Under the pieces are notes generated by a model. The model was not told the origin of the DNA. It made no database searches and was given only the letters and a program-made list of their open reading frames with translations. From a virus: 51,328 nucleotides of DNA. The position numbers were made by a program, and so were the translations under genes. Shown in pieces: positions 1-7,946 of the stretch; the first letter of the stretch is position 1, and every line of letters starts with the position of its first letter. The stretch lies in the IMG/VR virus record IMGVR_UViG_3300036822_000043, positions 1-51,328 of that record; one strand, given 5' to 3'.

Positions 1-1
1 C

Positions 2-136
2 GGCAAGTACATCTCAGCTTACCGGCCACTACCACCAGTGCCCGCGCGGCAAGATCAGGAGGAGCTGGCCAAGCAGGCGGTCAACTGGGAGACGACCGAG
101 ATAACCGCACGCAAGTTCGGCTTCGGCGCGGAGTAG
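2..136 (+). CDS. partial hypothetical protein (C-terminal end only)
   Basis: An open frame runs in from the left edge of the window and stops with TAG at 134-136, giving the last 44 residues of a protein whose start lies outside. The tail is polar and ends in KFGFGAE. It is probably the gene directly upstream in the same operon, because the stop is only 4 bases before the next ATG and its last bases supply that gene's GGAG ribosome binding site. Too little is visible to name a function. Confidence 0.5.
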   Translation, partial: GKYISAYRPLPPVPARQDQEELAKQAVNWETTEITARKFGFGAE

Positions 137-140
137 GCAG

Positions 141-674
141 ATGGAACTCGACCGCATCCTCGACAAGATCCGTGCCCTCATCAACAAGGCGGAGTCCCTA
201 GAATCCAGCGGCGACAAGATGCTCGCGAATGAAGCAAATGCCTGTCGCGAGCGCGCCGACGCAATGATGCAGAAGTTGGAATGGAAGCAAATGTACCCAG
301 ACTTCCAAAATTACTGGATAAGCGGTGATGGGCATATAGTAAATCGCAAGAATCAACCAATATCACAGATACTCGGGAAGGATGGATATCTCAGAGTAAA
401 TCTCCACGGCAAGCGTGGGAAAAAGTTCAGGATGATAAGCAGGCTTGTCTGCCTATATTATAATGGTCCACCTCCAAGTGACGGAATAAAGTATCAGGCA
501 GCTCATCTTGACACTAATAAGCTCAACAACAACTTCTGGAATCTAGAGTGGCAAACTAACAAACAAAATAGTAACAATCCAATAACAAGATCGAAAAATT
601 CCATCGCTAAGAAGCAAAATTATTTCGAGGGCAAGATACTCAAACATAACAGGAGGATTAATGGAACTCAATAA
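141..674 (+). CDS. chimeric protein: DUF2786-like N-terminus joined to an HNH homing endonuclease
   Basis: Residues 1-45 are a DUF2786-type helical start (LDKIRALINKAESLE) that matches the start of the next gene at 33 of 45 positions, counted by hand. From about residue 47 the protein changes to a homing-endonuclease pattern: a NUMOD4-like segment (YPDFQNYWISGDGHIVNRK) and an HNH core (AAHLDTNKLNNNFWNLEW, residues about 121-138). Composition changes with it: bases 141-275 are GC-rich like the neighbours, while 276-660 are near 40% GC by eye. The start is supported by GGAG 8 bases upstream. Its 3' end overlaps the next ATG by 14 bases. The likely role is a mobile DNA endonuclease that cuts a cognate site in related phages. 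The fused N-terminus is probably the captured original 5' end of the DUF2786 gene. Confidence 0.8.
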   Translation: MELDRILDKIRALINKAESLESSGDKMLANEANACRERADAMMQKLEWKQMYPDFQNYWISGDGHIVNRKNQPISQILGKDGYLRVNLHGKRGKKFRMISRLVCLYYNGPPPSDGIKYQAAHLDTNKLNNNFWNLEWQTNKQNSNNPITRSKNSIAKKQNYFEGKILKHNRRINGTQ

Positions 675-1623
675 GATTCTCGATAAGATCCGAGGATTGA
701 TTAACAAAGCAGAATCACTAGAAGCTAGTGGCGACCGTAATCAGGGACTAGAGGCGCAAGCCTGCCGAGAACGTGCCGATCAAATGATGCAGCGTTACGC
801 TGTTGAGGAGTGGCAGACAGCGCAGAAGGCACCAGTTGCCGTTGTGCCGACCAGGATCAAGATTGATCTTGGTGATGAGGACAACCCATTCCTCACGGAG
901 CTGGCGACACTCGTCAATATCGTCAGCAAGTTCTGTAAGTGCTCGTCAATCTGGATGGAGCACTCGGGCAGGAAGTCGCTAGGCATTCAGGAGTACGTCT
1001 GGGTCTACGGCTATGAGTCGGATCTCCGGTACTTCGAGATGCTGTTCACCACCATCCACCTCCACATGCTCGGCGCCATCTTCCCCAAGCCAGATCCCAA
1101 CAAGACCCTAGGCGAGAACGCCTATGAACTACACAACGCAGGCCTCAACTGGTTCGACATCGCCAAGGCATACGGCTGGTACCAGGTACCGCCCAACCCC
1201 GGCGAGCCCAGGGATATGTACGTCAGCCGGGAGACAGGCGAACGGGCGAGTTGGGCGCGGTCGATCGGCAGGATCAAGACGGCCTACCGGGCTGAGGTTT
1301 CATCCCGCGCGGAAGAATTTCTGCGAATTTCACCCGCCGGTTCGGAAACATACCGGCGCAACGCGGCTATGGGATACCTGAGCCGAATCAAGCAGAGGCT
1401 CGATGGTATCGCCGGGCAGCGCGGAACGGGCGCGGAGGTTGTACTAGCGGACAAGAGCCAGAACATCGCGGCGGCGCTAGCCGACGACTTCCCGCACGCC
1501 AGGCAGACAGCCAACAAAAAAGCTTCATTCAATGCGACTGCGTACCGGAAGGGAGTAGCGCACGCGAACACGGCGAGCCTGAACCCGCAGGCGACGGCCG
1601 CATCGACCAAAGCGATAGAGTAG
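661..1623 (+). CDS. DUF2786 domain protein
   Basis: A 320-residue protein whose first 50 residues (LDKIRGLINKAESLEASGD, then ACRERADQMMQRY) carry the DUF2786 signature. It is followed by a longer domain of the kind often found after DUF2786 in actinophages and a low-complexity Ala/Thr/Asn tail. DUF2786 proteins are widespread in phages, but their biochemical role is not established. The start has AGGAGG about 6 bases upstream, inside the end of the HNH gene. The first 120-170 bases are AT-rich and use different synonymous codons from the related stretch at 141-275, whereas the rest is GC-rich. This suggests a replaced 5' end. The gene is followed by a 211-base regulatory gap. Confidence 0.75.
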   Translation: MELNKILDKIRGLINKAESLEASGDRNQGLEAQACRERADQMMQRYAVEEWQTAQKAPVAVVPTRIKIDLGDEDNPFLTELATLVNIVSKFCKCSSIWMEHSGRKSLGIQEYVWVYGYESDLRYFEMLFTTIHLHMLGAIFPKPDPNKTLGENAYELHNAGLNWFDIAKAYGWYQVPPNPGEPRDMYVSRETGERASWARSIGRIKTAYRAEVSSRAEEFLRISPAGSETYRRNAAMGYLSRIKQRLDGIAGQRGTGAEVVLADKSQNIAAALADDFPHARQTANKKASFNATAYRKGVAHANTASLNPQATAASTKAIE

Positions 1624-1659
1624 CGCGCTAGCGTCCGCTCGCCGCGCGCTAGGCGTTCG

Positions 1660-1726
1660 CCGCGCGGGTAGGGATAGCCGTACGTACGGCCGGTAATCGC
1701 TCCGTACGGCTTCCCTAGCCGCGCGG
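1660..1726. repeat. 24 bp inverted repeat overlapping a promoter
   Basis: Bases 1660-1684 are the reverse complement of 1703-1726, apart from one mismatch and one unpaired base. The loop is 18 bases. The right arm contains the TTCCCT -35 element at 1711-1716. It could terminate transcription from the DUF2786 gene, act as an operator at the next promoter, or both. There is no T-run after the right arm. Confidence 0.75.
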
Positions 1727-1739
1727 GAAGCGCTATAAT
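1711..1739 (+). promoter_or_regulatory. predicted promoter, TTCCCT-N17-TATAAT
   Basis: TTCCCT at 1711-1716 and a perfect TATAAT at 1734-1739 are separated by 17 bases, directly upstream of the small-gene operon that begins at 1835. The same -35 hexamer at the same spacing recurs at 49402, 50204 and, on the minus strand, 46488, which raises confidence that it is a real phage promoter class. Confidence 0.6.
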
Positions 1740-1747
1740 CGAGAGAC

Positions 1748-1823
1748 GTAGCCGAAATACGGCTACTGGAAAAAGGAGGGTTACCCTCCGTATCGTGAGG
1801 GGAAAAAGGAGGGTAACCCTCCG
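1748..1823 (+). promoter_or_regulatory. leader with three tandem hairpins, the last two a near-identical repeat
   Basis: Starting 9 bases after the TATAAT, GTAGCCG (1748-1754) pairs with CGGCTAC (1760-1766). Two 23-base direct repeats then follow at 1768-1790 and 1801-1823, differing at one base. Each holds the dyad GGAGGGTWACCCTCC. The 5' arm of each dyad (AAAGGAGGG) is also a Shine-Dalgarno-like sequence that would be hidden when the hairpin forms. The leader therefore looks like either paired operators for a dyad-binding repressor or an RNA element controlling translation of the gene at 1835. Which one is not decided by the sequence. Confidence 0.65.
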
Positions 1824-1834
1824 GGAAGGCATCG

Positions 1835-2038
1835 ATGGACTGGCGTACCGAGGATGCTATTGCGAAGTTCAGGAAGCTTGAGCGTATGCTACTGAATCGT
1901 GATATTGCCGAGTACGCGCTGGAGCAGGCGCTGCGCGGACAAGTCAACATGAAGCAGTACCAGGAATCAACCGAGAAGATCCGCAGGGAATTCGAGGGGC
2001 GTCGTGAGGCGCTGACTAGATCCAAGAGGCTACCATAA
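1835..2038 (+). CDS. small hypothetical protein, helical and charged
   Basis: A 67-residue protein rich in Arg, Glu and Lys with no Cys. It is predicted mostly alpha-helical from the spacing of charged residues, with the helical C-terminal stretch EKIRREFEGRREALTRSKR. It is the first gene after the structured leader at 1748-1823, with a GGGAAGG ribosome binding site just upstream. Its TAA overlaps the ATG of the next gene (TAATG). The family is not recognised. Confidence 0.65.
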   Translation: MDWRTEDAIAKFRKLERMLLNRDIAEYALEQALRGQVNMKQYQESTEKIRREFEGRREALTRSKRLP

Positions 2039-2286
2039 TGCGCCAATGCGAGGTGAACATCAGGCCGCTGATGATCCCGTGCGGCAATCCTACCGAAACC
2101 ATGTACGAGGCAAGGTGTGAAAGGGGACATGTACGAATCAAGTGGGCATGCAAGGAATGCGCCGAATACCCACACCCGGTATGTGGCGGCTGCGCGGAAG
2201 TCGGCATGAAGTACTCGCCCGTGAAGATACGGCTTGTAGAGGAGGGTTACGGTGTCAACAATGCCGATTCTAACGGCGACGCATGA
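2038..2286 (+). CDS. small zinc-ribbon-like protein
   Basis: An 82-residue protein with Cys pairs and a His (C-ERGH, then CKEC and CGGC further on) compatible with one or two zinc sites in the middle of the chain. It is translationally coupled to the preceding gene by a TAATG overlap. Its last 35 bases overlap the next gene. Such small treble-clef or ribbon proteins are common in early operons of actinophages and are usually of unknown role. No specific family is recognised. Confidence 0.6.
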   Translation: MRQCEVNIRPLMIPCGNPTETMYEARCERGHVRIKWACKECAEYPHPVCGGCAEVGMKYSPVKIRLVEEGYGVNNADSNGDA

Positions 2287-2500
2287 CAAGGAGGGCATCT
2301 GGGATTTCGTATGCCCGCTTCATGATCCGCCACGCAAGACGCGCGGTATCGCCTCGCCGCGTCAGGCTCCAACCATCATGAAGCTCCACATGGATCTCGA
2401 CCATCCCGGCGTATCCGTATGGCTACTGGTCAGCAGCCAGTACTCCGGGACACGCAAGACCAGGTATACCGCGCCGGAGAACGTCACAAGGAGTCTGTAG
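2252..2500 (+). CDS. small hypothetical protein with a Cys/His pattern
   Basis: An 82-residue protein. The GTG start at 2252 is chosen because GGAGGG lies 5 bases upstream. The segment CPLHDPP followed by KLHMDLDH resembles a single C2H2-like or related zinc knuckle, but this is only a pattern match. It overlaps the previous gene by 35 bases and ends in TAG sharing bases with the GTG of the next gene, the same coupling used throughout this operon. Confidence 0.5.
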   Translation: MSTMPILTATHDKEGIWDFVCPLHDPPRKTRGIASPRQAPTIMKLHMDLDHPGVSVWLLVSSQYSGTRKTRYTAPENVTRSL

Positions 2501-2673
2501 TGAAGAAACGCATAATGCCGCGCAGCCCGCTATTCTGCGACACCGGTCCATACACGGGATATACTCGCGTAGACGTCACCGCACAGATCTACCTTACGGC
2601 TGACGAGCTGAAGGAATACTACGCGAATGGGTTCGACATCATCATCAAGCCCAAGAAAGAGGAGGACAAGTAA
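2500..2673 (+). CDS. small hypothetical protein
   Basis: A 57-residue protein starting at GTG 2500 with AAGGAG 7 bases upstream. The stop of the upstream gene is embedded in the start (TAGTG). The middle (YTRVDVTAQIYLTADELKEYY) looks like a short beta-strand and helix unit, and the end is Lys-rich. A longer reading beginning at 2419 is possible but lacks a ribosome binding site and would overlap the previous gene deeply. Family not recognised. Confidence 0.5.
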   Translation: MKKRIMPRSPLFCDTGPYTGYTRVDVTAQIYLTADELKEYYANGFDIIIKPKKEEDK

Positions 2674-5672: not shown

Positions 5673-5926
5673 TGCCTACGCCTACCGGACTGCCTAAGGT
5701 CGGGGAAGTATGGGAGAGCACCCGTAAGCTTCCGCCCGACTGGACTCCGAATACAACACGCTTTGTTGTACTGGAGCGCGGACGTGGAGACTACTGGTCG
5801 ATGCGGGTGTACATTCCGGGCATCGGCAGGAAGCTATGGGTCGATCCAGCCTACCAGATGAAGATGGGCGAACTCAAGTACATAGGACCAGCCGGTCCCG
5901 AAACACGCAGGAAGCTAGGCATCTAA
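5672..5926 (+). CDS. small hypothetical protein
   Basis: An 84-residue protein starting in the stop codon of the previous gene. The pattern PKVGEVWES and RFVVLERGRGDYWSMRVY suggests a small beta-barrel of the kind seen in many phage accessory proteins, but no named family is recognised. It is the last gene before the promoter at 5933-5962. Confidence 0.5.
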   Translation: MPTPTGLPKVGEVWESTRKLPPDWTPNTTRFVVLERGRGDYWSMRVYIPGIGRKLWVDPAYQMKMGELKYIGPAGPETRRKLGI

Positions 5927-5932
5927 TCAGGA

Positions 5933-5962
5933 TTCGCTTTCCGGCGGCGACTAGGGTAGGAT
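5933..5962 (+). promoter_or_regulatory. predicted promoter, TTCGCT-N18-TAGGAT
   Basis: TTCGCTTTCCGGC at 5933 closely resembles TTCCCTTTCCGGC at 50204, and both run into GGGTAGG about 20 bases later. It sits in the 73-base gap before the helicase gene. The spacing is 18 rather than 17, and the -10 is weak. Confidence 0.4.
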
Positions 5963-5999
5963 TAAGCTACCGGCGAGACCGGAGCGAGAAAGGACCTTA

Positions 6000-7946
6000 A
6001 TGAAGGCCGTAGTAACAACGGACGGGAAGCGCATCCTTGCGAAGATCGATTATGCCGGAGGCAAAGGTCCTCGGGCAGCGAAGAATGTGCCGGGCGCTCG
6101 CGCTAGCTGGGACAAGTCGGTAACACCGAACATATTCCTCGGTTGGTCGTACCCCTTGACCATGGATACGTGCCGAGCACTGCGGAAGGAATTCGGCGAT
6201 GAGCTAGAGATCCTACCACGGCTAGCTGAATGGGCTCGCGCGGCCATCCAGAAGGAAAACCACCTGGAGGATATCCGCGAGGAGAAGATCCACAACGTCA
6301 GCTTTCCGCGCGTCGAGCAAGAAGCACCCGCCCTTCTAGCGGCGATGCGGAACCGCAAGTACCAGCTAGCAGGAGCCGCCTTCATCCTTGCCGGAAAGAA
6401 CGTGATCCTCGGTGACGATCCCGGGCTCGGCAAGACGCTTCAAGCACTCGCCGCCGTCATCGAGAACGACGCCAAGGAAATCCTCGTCGCCTGCCGCCGT
6501 ACCGCGACCCGTACCGTGTGGGAACGCGAGACGATGCGCTGGGCACCAGGAATTGCTACATTCGTTGCGCAGGGAGGCCGTGCCGAGCGCGAGCAGGCTA
6601 TGTCCGATTTCGCGAACCACTCAGTGGAGATCCCCGGCACGCGGAAGATGCTGATCATCAACATCGAGATGGTCCGCGCTAAGCGCCGCGAGGTATGCCC
6701 GGCAGGACCGGGCGGTATGTGCGCATTTGATGGTAGTCGTCCTCCAGACGGACACCCCAAGCATGAGTACCACGCTACGCCAGAGTGGCCGTTCCTGACC
6801 GAGCGTGAATGGGATGCGATCATATTCGATGAGAGCCACAACCTCCTAGCTAGTACAGCGAACATCCAGAGCAAGCGGATTACGCAGTCTAGGTTCGGCG
6901 CCATGCAGATTCGCAAGCGACTCCGGCCGGGCGGCCTAGCGATAGCCCTATCCGGTACGCCATTCAGGAGCAAGCTTGAGAAGGGATGGGGAACACTCAA
7001 CTGGCTGGACAGTAAGCTATTCAGCAGCTACTGGGGTTGGGCGGAAACGCACTTCGGTGTCGAGGATGGCCGTTACGGCAAGATCGTCGGGAACGGCGGC
7101 AAGGTCCTAGTACCGCGCGACGAACAGGCATGGGACCGGATGCTACGTCCCCACTACATCAAAAGAGAGAAGAAAGATGCGGCACCAGATCTCCCGCCAA
7201 TCAACTACGCAGGAACCCCAATCGACCCCGAAGATCCGAACAGTCAGTGTTACGTTCAGCTTGACATGGAGCAGGTCCAGTTCAAAGCATACTGGAGCAT
7301 GGAGAAGCTTGCCGAAGCAACTCTCCAGGATGGCGCACGGATCACGGCTGCAGGAGTTCTTGCCGAGATCACACGACTGCGACAGTTCGCAACAGCCTCC
7401 CACGTTCTAGGGGAGAGTAGACAACACCTCATCCCAAGGATGCCCTCGAATAAAATTGAGTGGCTTACCGACTTCATGCAGGAGCGCGAGGATACCGGCG
7501 CAAAGGTAGTCGTCGCTAGCAGCTTCAGCAGCATCGTAGGGCTAGCAGCACTACAGATCCGTAACGAGACGGGCCTGGAGGTTCTGACTCTAACAGGCGC
7601 GACCAGCGACAGGGCTCGCGCGGATCTTGTTGCGCGGTTCCAGGACCCGAACGATAGCTTGCGCGTAGTCGTCCTGAATCGTGATGCAGGCGGCGAGTCG
7701 ATTACCCTAGACGCGGCCGATGAGATGGTTGTCCTCGATATGCCATGGATCTCCGACCGGGATGATCAATTGTTCTCCCGTATTCACCGGGTAAGCCGTA
7801 TGCACCAGGTCACCATCTACCGGCTCGTTTCGACGGGCACTATCGACGAGTGGATTGCCATGCTCAATGAGGAGCAGCGGACGGCAGTAGCGACAGCTAG
7901 CCCAGTGAAACTAAGCGAGATGGCTATCGCAGGAAAGGACGCATAA
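6000..7946 (+). CDS. SNF2/superfamily 2 DNA helicase
   Basis: A 648-residue ATP-dependent DNA translocase. Walker A is GDDPGLGKT at about 138-146, with a preceding QLAGAAFIL segment matching the Q-motif region. The DEAD-box-like motif II is FDESHN at about 276-281, and motif III is ALSGTPFRSK. The second RecA domain shows NRDAGGESITL and ends with a motif VI-like FSRIHRVSRMHQVTIYRLVS, typical of SNF2/SSL2 helicases (Q-x-x-R-x-x-R variant). It probably acts in replication or recombination on the phage chromosome. AAAGGA lies 6 bases before the start. It is co-transcribed with the small genes that follow. Confidence 0.9.
   Translation: MKAVVTTDGKRILAKIDYAGGKGPRAAKNVPGARASWDKSVTPNIFLGWSYPLTMDTCRALRKEFGDELEILPRLAEWARAAIQKENHLEDIREEKIHNVSFPRVEQEAPALLAAMRNRKYQLAGAAFILAGKNVILGDDPGLGKTLQALAAVIENDAKEILVACRRTATRTVWERETMRWAPGIATFVAQGGRAEREQAMSDFANHSVEIPGTRKMLIINIEMVRAKRREVCPAGPGGMCAFDGSRPPDGHPKHEYHATPEWPFLTEREWDAIIFDESHNLLASTANIQSKRITQSRFGAMQIRKRLRPGGLAIALSGTPFRSKLEKGWGTLNWLDSKLFSSYWGWAETHFGVEDGRYGKIVGNGGKVLVPRDEQAWDRMLRPHYIKREKKDAAPDLPPINYAGTPIDPEDPNSQCYVQLDMEQVQFKAYWSMEKLAEATLQDGARITAAGVLAEITRLRQFATASHVLGESRQHLIPRMPSNKIEWLTDFMQEREDTGAKVVVASSFSSIVGLAALQIRNETGLEVLTLTGATSDRARADLVARFQDPNDSLRVVVLNRDAGGESITLDAADEMVVLDMPWISDRDDQLFSRIHRVSRMHQVTIYRLVSTGTIDEWIAMLNEEQRTAVATASPVKLSEMAIAGKDA

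Follow-up and report, generated by a model that had tools for sequence, protein, structure and literature searches.

How does an endonuclease gene come to lie between two copies of the start of another gene that is itself still intact? The question is raised by the left end of the window analyzed here, a 51,328-nucleotide IMG/VR virus record from a soil phage that also carries tailed-phage genes for a terminase, portal, tape measure, DNA polymerase, and helicase. All features at this end lie on the plus strand. The 3' end of an upstream gene (positions 2–136), truncated by the contig start, is followed by the first 45 codons of a DUF2786-type gene (copy 1, 141–275), which are fused in frame to an HNH endonuclease (276–674) within a single open reading frame of 177 aa (141–674). 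A second start (copy 2, from 661) heads an intact gene of 320 aa (661–1623), and the stop codon of the nuclease (672–674) overlaps this new start. The new start has its own ribosome-binding site, AGGAGG at 651–656, read from the sequence within the 3' end of the nuclease gene. An Rfam match to the hsp17 RNA thermometer lies over this site (622–663); it is sub-threshold (23.4 of 45 bits) and probably due to chance. Just 3' of the intact gene, a palindromic block, AAAAAGGAGGGT(T/A)ACCCTCC, was found by eye in two copies (1766–1825), possibly terminators or an operator pair.

The first-pass annotation had placed a DUF2786 start on either side of the nuclease, with 33 of 45 residues and 89 of 135 bases shared by the copies (141–275 and 661–795). 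The same counts were obtained here, the nuclease gene between the copies is intact, and the protein-level repeat spanning it has E = 9e-19. The many synonymous changes that had been described were also recovered, as 17 of the 33 identical residues are encoded by different codons. Copy 1 is GC-rich (GC3 0.78) and joined to an AT-rich nuclease (GC3 0.46), as the annotation had stated, and the GC3 of copy 2 is about 0.40–0.42 versus 0.75 in the gene body (first 42 codons against body, p = 1.4e-5). This 5' drop of −0.35 is the largest among the 45 open reading frames of the window; in 16 relatives, it ranged from −0.17 to +0.02. Copy 2 had been called AT-rich over its first 120–170 bases. Its AT-richness held up but that extent did not: the shift is clearest over about the first 90 bases, followed by a gradual rise to about base 840. 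Because the composition is graded, the right end of the anomalous segment can be placed only within some tens of bases.

Alignment with relatives that lack the insert was the check that the annotation had proposed. Searches of viral contigs returned 11 and then 21 relatives in overlapping sets, about 19 of them close, and all of these were uninterrupted; none of the about 19 had an HNH gene directly upstream or a second start. L001 and L002 (82% and 76% amino acid identity to the window gene) retain the same upstream gene just 5' of a single unbroken DUF2786 gene; their flank and start match window positions 6–272 (79%), and the body matches from 660 onward. In L001, window 6–272 corresponds to 5866–6132 and window 660–2600 to 6000–7946; therefore, the HNH segment is simply missing there. 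Because L001 and L002 are thus empty-site alleles, colinear on both flanks, copy 1, relative-like in its GC3, is the native start. As judged from these alignments, the gene was ancestrally uninterrupted, and a unit of about 515 bp (about 276–790), comprising the nuclease and diverged codons 1 to about 44, splits the old start from the restored gene. HNH-free relatives with an AT-rich 5' end and two ancestral DUF2786 genes would speak for a different history; among the about 19 relatives, neither an AT-rich start nor a pair of genes was seen. The empty alleles support the earlier proposal that a nuclease with a diverged replacement 5' end landed in the gene, fused to the old start, and restored the gene with its own. 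We therefore favor the reading that the locus is an endonuclease-driven, 5'-end-replacing homing cassette, with a probability of roughly 0.75.

The junctions of this cassette coincide within the gene. From codons 44–45 (about 785–790), copy 2 carries L001-specific codons (CAG CGT TAC GCT GT..., ACA GC), and copy 1 ends at codon 45/46; both junctions therefore fall at one gene position, codons 42–46, beside the invariant ATGATGCAG. This motif is the same in all aligned relatives. In copy 1, it occupies codons 42–44 (264–272), with the left junction directly 3' of it; in copy 2, it lies at 784–792, and the sequence is L001-like from there onward. Both GC3 and L001 identity shift across the AT-shifted replacement 5' end (661–790, codons 1 to about 44), the right boundary of which is uncertain (about 750–840). 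We also considered whether the nuclease targets the best-conserved stretch of this gene and rejected this, because the conservation of codons 44–52 is high, at about the 90th percentile, without being the highest.

As to the origin of the new start, copy 2 is 63% identical to L001 over the first 42 codons and 81% over the rest (p = 2e-5), whereas the values against L002, 69% and 74%, do not differ significantly (p = 0.28). Because it is anomalous against L001 but not against L002, the replacement start is an allele that diverged within this gene family, using A/T-ending codons; a remote foreign origin was rejected, since its distance to L002 is not unusual. A donor allele of the AT-shifted 5' end was not found among phages searched by DNA, viral contigs searched with a degenerate 5'-end pattern, or bacterial genomes, and a search of viral contigs with the HNH protein returned no close relative or donor. 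Copy 1 with its flank is a mosaic, L001-like at 76–175 and L002-like at 176–275 (p = 6e-5). This was given no weight as a sign of left-arm recombination because the whole family is mosaic.

The nuclease matches HNH_3 above cut-off (435–572, residues 99–144; 31.5 vs 24.8, E = 1.3e-7) and NUMOD4 slightly under it (279–407, residues 47–89; 21.9 vs 23.4), and the HNH-motif columns H77, N85, N89, and N98 are conserved. Its domains and motif residues identify it as a predicted NUMOD4-HNH_3 homing endonuclease. It is complete from its natural start, since the TTG codon at 276 aligns with the initiator methionine of homologues, which begin M-[EK]-W at this column; the fusion point with copy 1 is exactly this start. 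The host gene matches PHROG 421 (1.4e-23) and reaches 17.2 of the 23.9 bits required for gathering against DUF2786 (PF10979), below threshold, which makes it a remote, DUF2786-like gene. A search by fold for the function of the host gene gave no PDB match at E < 0.001 (model mean pLDDT 69).

An HNH reading frame continuous with an upstream exon occurs in group I introns, and the present fusion has this form; moreover, if the nuclease and copy 2 were spliced out, the reading frame would run on from codon 45 of copy 1 into codon 46 of the body. Nevertheless, such a group I or II intron or intein is highly improbable here, the least likely of the explanations weighed. No intron family matched window 1–1800 at E ≤ 5, and none matched, at gathering thresholds, the five other duplicated-start loci or the L068 locus described below; copy 2, for its part, is served by a separate ribosome-binding site and opens an unbroken reading frame. 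An intron-encoded endonuclease was rejected because a self-splicing core was not found, and an intein because Pfam splicing domains are absent and the exteins do not share one frame, the HNH reading frame stopping at 672–674 in a different frame from the gene that begins at 661.

The contig is a metagenomic assembly and the locus lies 141 bases from its end (141–830 of the record), a setting in which two phage strains could have been joined by the assembler. Such a chimera is only marginally less improbable than splicing: copy 1 is joined in frame where the nuclease naturally begins, the stop codon of the nuclease overlaps the start that follows, and independent contigs show this architecture too. 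These contigs came from a survey in which HNH loci were collected with three degenerate HNH-motif patterns and the proteins upstream and downstream were compared at 329 usable HNH places among the matches listed, with HNH–HNH paralogue repeats excluded. Besides the window, at least five more candidate loci have duplicated gene starts flanking an HNH gene, a rough rate of 1.5–2% among the matches listed, with a spacing of 512–691 nt and 20–60% of the shared residues differently spelled. They comprise a terminase large subunit (TerL) gene (L355; 20/21 aa, 12/20 shared codons synonymous), another TerL gene (L401; 17/31 aa), a third TerL locus (L076), a small pelagiphage gene (L177; 15/15 aa, copies identical at 42/45 nt), and a small zinc-ribbon-like gene (L406; 16/20 aa). 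Shuffled upstream/downstream pairs gave 3 matches in 329, all HNH domain against HNH domain and none a duplicated gene end. The first-pass view that a 5' version in a phage is unusual thus needs revision insofar as this locus is not a one-off. In pelagiphage relatives of the L177 gene, no endonuclease is annotated at that place. A duplicated 3' end around an HNH gene was seen in L068 (813–2373) and L118, counted as one 3' case, in which a gene ends GEDTKCLMYCPVAQFCP, an HNH gene follows, and then an orphan fragment ends GEDTKCDSYCPVSDFCP; from its C-terminal cysteines, we read the gene as Cas4-like. The string IQGGTS beside an HNH gene in L351 was rejected as a terminase fusion, as it belongs to a non-terminase gene.

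One TerL system preserves exact junctions. In the uninterrupted allele of L423 (L412 is also empty), GATGGAGTTTAA is followed by GTACACG (more fully, GGCGATGGAGTTTAA by GTACACGACC), whereas in the occupied alleles L064, L099, L053, and L422, GATGGAGTTTAA is followed by TATACC, the HNH gene, and the new start (more fully, GGCGATGGAGTTTAA by TATACCAAGGGGG, the HNH gene, and ATGTTTAGTTACACA); the junction in L421 is GGGGATGGACTTTAA followed by TATACC. The L064-type cassette is thus inserted after the start of the fourth codon and provides a new start. L076 contains the same cassette, but there it is preceded by 16 codons of an L423-type start, so the left junction can vary. Its copy 1 is of the L423 type (35/39 nt) and its copy 2 of the cassette type (39/39 nt to L064); therefore, the two copies derive from two alleles, which supports replacement and disfavors local duplication.

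This bears on the possibility that the 5' end was first duplicated in tandem, for example by nuclease-induced segmental amplification, and that the HNH gene was inserted between copies that diverged later. Homing endonucleases such as SegB can trigger segmental amplification (PMC13096335), and the near-identical copies of L177 (42/45 nt) are what a recent duplication would leave. We nevertheless regard duplication first as unlikely, because the two L076 copies are alleles found separately in other phages, and in the window the compositionally odd copy is the functional one, not the fragment. A stronger competitor, which we judge possible and clearly less probable than the favored reading, is ordinary intronless homing with co-conversion from a relative carrying a free-standing HNH gene just 5' of DUF2786, the old start being the product of imperfect repair on the left rather than part of an organized cassette. 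Free-standing phage endonucleases do spread with flanking co-conversion (PMC2988022), replacement by the donor allele is the standard view of resistance (PMC12724721), and two distinct left junctions exist among the TerL cassettes. Against this, the order of leftover start, HNH gene, and recoded start repeats in unrelated genes. What separates co-conversion from a replacement cassette is chiefly the way the left end is attached.

The same terminases have a further peculiarity. In 20 contigs (L053, L064, L076, L099, and L412–L427; e.g., L064 6711–6750), the P-loop is broken by an identical non-coding stretch, reading GGTSAG (GGA), a 29-nt hairpin with UAA in its loop, and GGA AAA ACA (GKT...), with the frames conserved on both sides. 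With its matched GGA codons, stop codon, and hairpin, this arrangement recalls translational bypassing in T4 gene 60. The HNH cassette lies directly 5' in 6 of these 20 contigs. At the same P-loop position of the different terminase of L355 (9782–9850), a 42-nt in-frame gap with a UAA and a ACCCCCTA/TAGGGGGT hairpin separates QGGTSA from GKTY, 3' of the start-replacing cassette.

Under the favored homing-cassette reading, the nuclease would cut or nick HNH-free alleles near codons 31–46, as the homing literature leads us to expect, and repair would copy the donor's HNH gene together with the adjoining new 5' end. Homology within the gene body would guide repair on the right. On the left, the remnant of the native start may serve as a homology arm, as the old end does in the WHO elements of yeasts, or joining may need little homology. 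The captured start would plausibly place the nuclease behind a putative native ribosome-binding site. The recoded 5' end would preserve protein function while escaping targeting. Resistance through replacement by the donor allele is the general view for free-standing homing endonuclease genes (PMC12724721) and, through allelic difference, has experimental support for WHO elements (PMC7282813). At codons 44–54, copy 2 differs little from the HNH-free L001; resistance there is therefore not obvious.

More broadly, the chances seem about even that phages hold a recurrent class of homing elements, so far undescribed, that exchange the 5' end of the target gene, combining an HNH gene with a resistant recoded start and leaving the old start as an expression leader and possibly a homology arm. 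Since such elements recur, together with 3' versions, in a DUF2786 gene, several terminase genes, and small genes from unrelated phages, they may be mirror-image counterparts of WHO elements with an independent origin. Such an element shows how a selfish nuclease can reside within a gene with neither an intron nor an intein to splice it out, namely by supplying a spare gene end. If true, chimeric gene starts and protein-neutral recoding in phages would arise directly through homing. Reading frames in which a truncated N-terminus is fused to an HNH gene, which annotation would regard as odd, would also find an explanation. The idea of resistance by recoding is directly testable.

The known kind to which this element would belong is the gene-end-replacing homing element, with the 5' end, the phage hosts, and the recurrence provisionally new, as searches of the open literature yielded no phage case. 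Free-standing phage HNH genes of the I-HmuI/NUMOD4 type (e.g., PMC12724721) share the NUMOD4 and HNH_3 make-up and sporadic presence, but are usually intergenic and lack a duplicated target-gene end. T4 mobA, with split gene 39/60 and the 50-nt bypass insert (PMC2988022, PMC5009743), likewise places a free-standing HNH gene in an essential phage gene with a linked change thought to be protective; there, however, the gene is split in two, whereas here a second start restores the whole gene and leaves no coding gap. In mitochondrial introns of the fungus Tremella fuciformis (PMC7315562), a foreign host-gene fragment travels with a mobile element and is exchanged into the gene, but the 5' end of the intron resembles the following exon, whereas here the fragment is 3' of the nuclease and no intron was found. 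The annotation had ascribed the 3'-end version of this arrangement to fungal mitochondrial genes; mitochondrial cases do exist, but its best-known examples are the nuclear WHO elements, by which the 3' end of FBA1 is replaced in Torulaspora and Lachancea yeasts (PMC7282813). Like the present locus, WHO elements combine a homing endonuclease gene with a replacement target-gene end, leave the old end as a fragment on the far side, and keep the host gene intact; allelic difference is said to give resistance in WHO, and the recoded 5' end here may do the same. They differ in that their endonuclease derives from an intein, carries zinc fingers, and is transcribed separately, whereas here a phage NUMOD4-HNH protein continues in frame from the old start. 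The defining marks of a gene-end-replacing element are present here in mirrored, 5' form, namely an empty uninterrupted allele and an old end left as a fragment together with a new diverged end. The order in WHO is body, new 3' end, nuclease, and old 3' fragment; in the window, it is old 5' fragment, nuclease, new 5' end, and body. The locus thus appears to work like a mirror-image WHO element from outside the WHO protein family.
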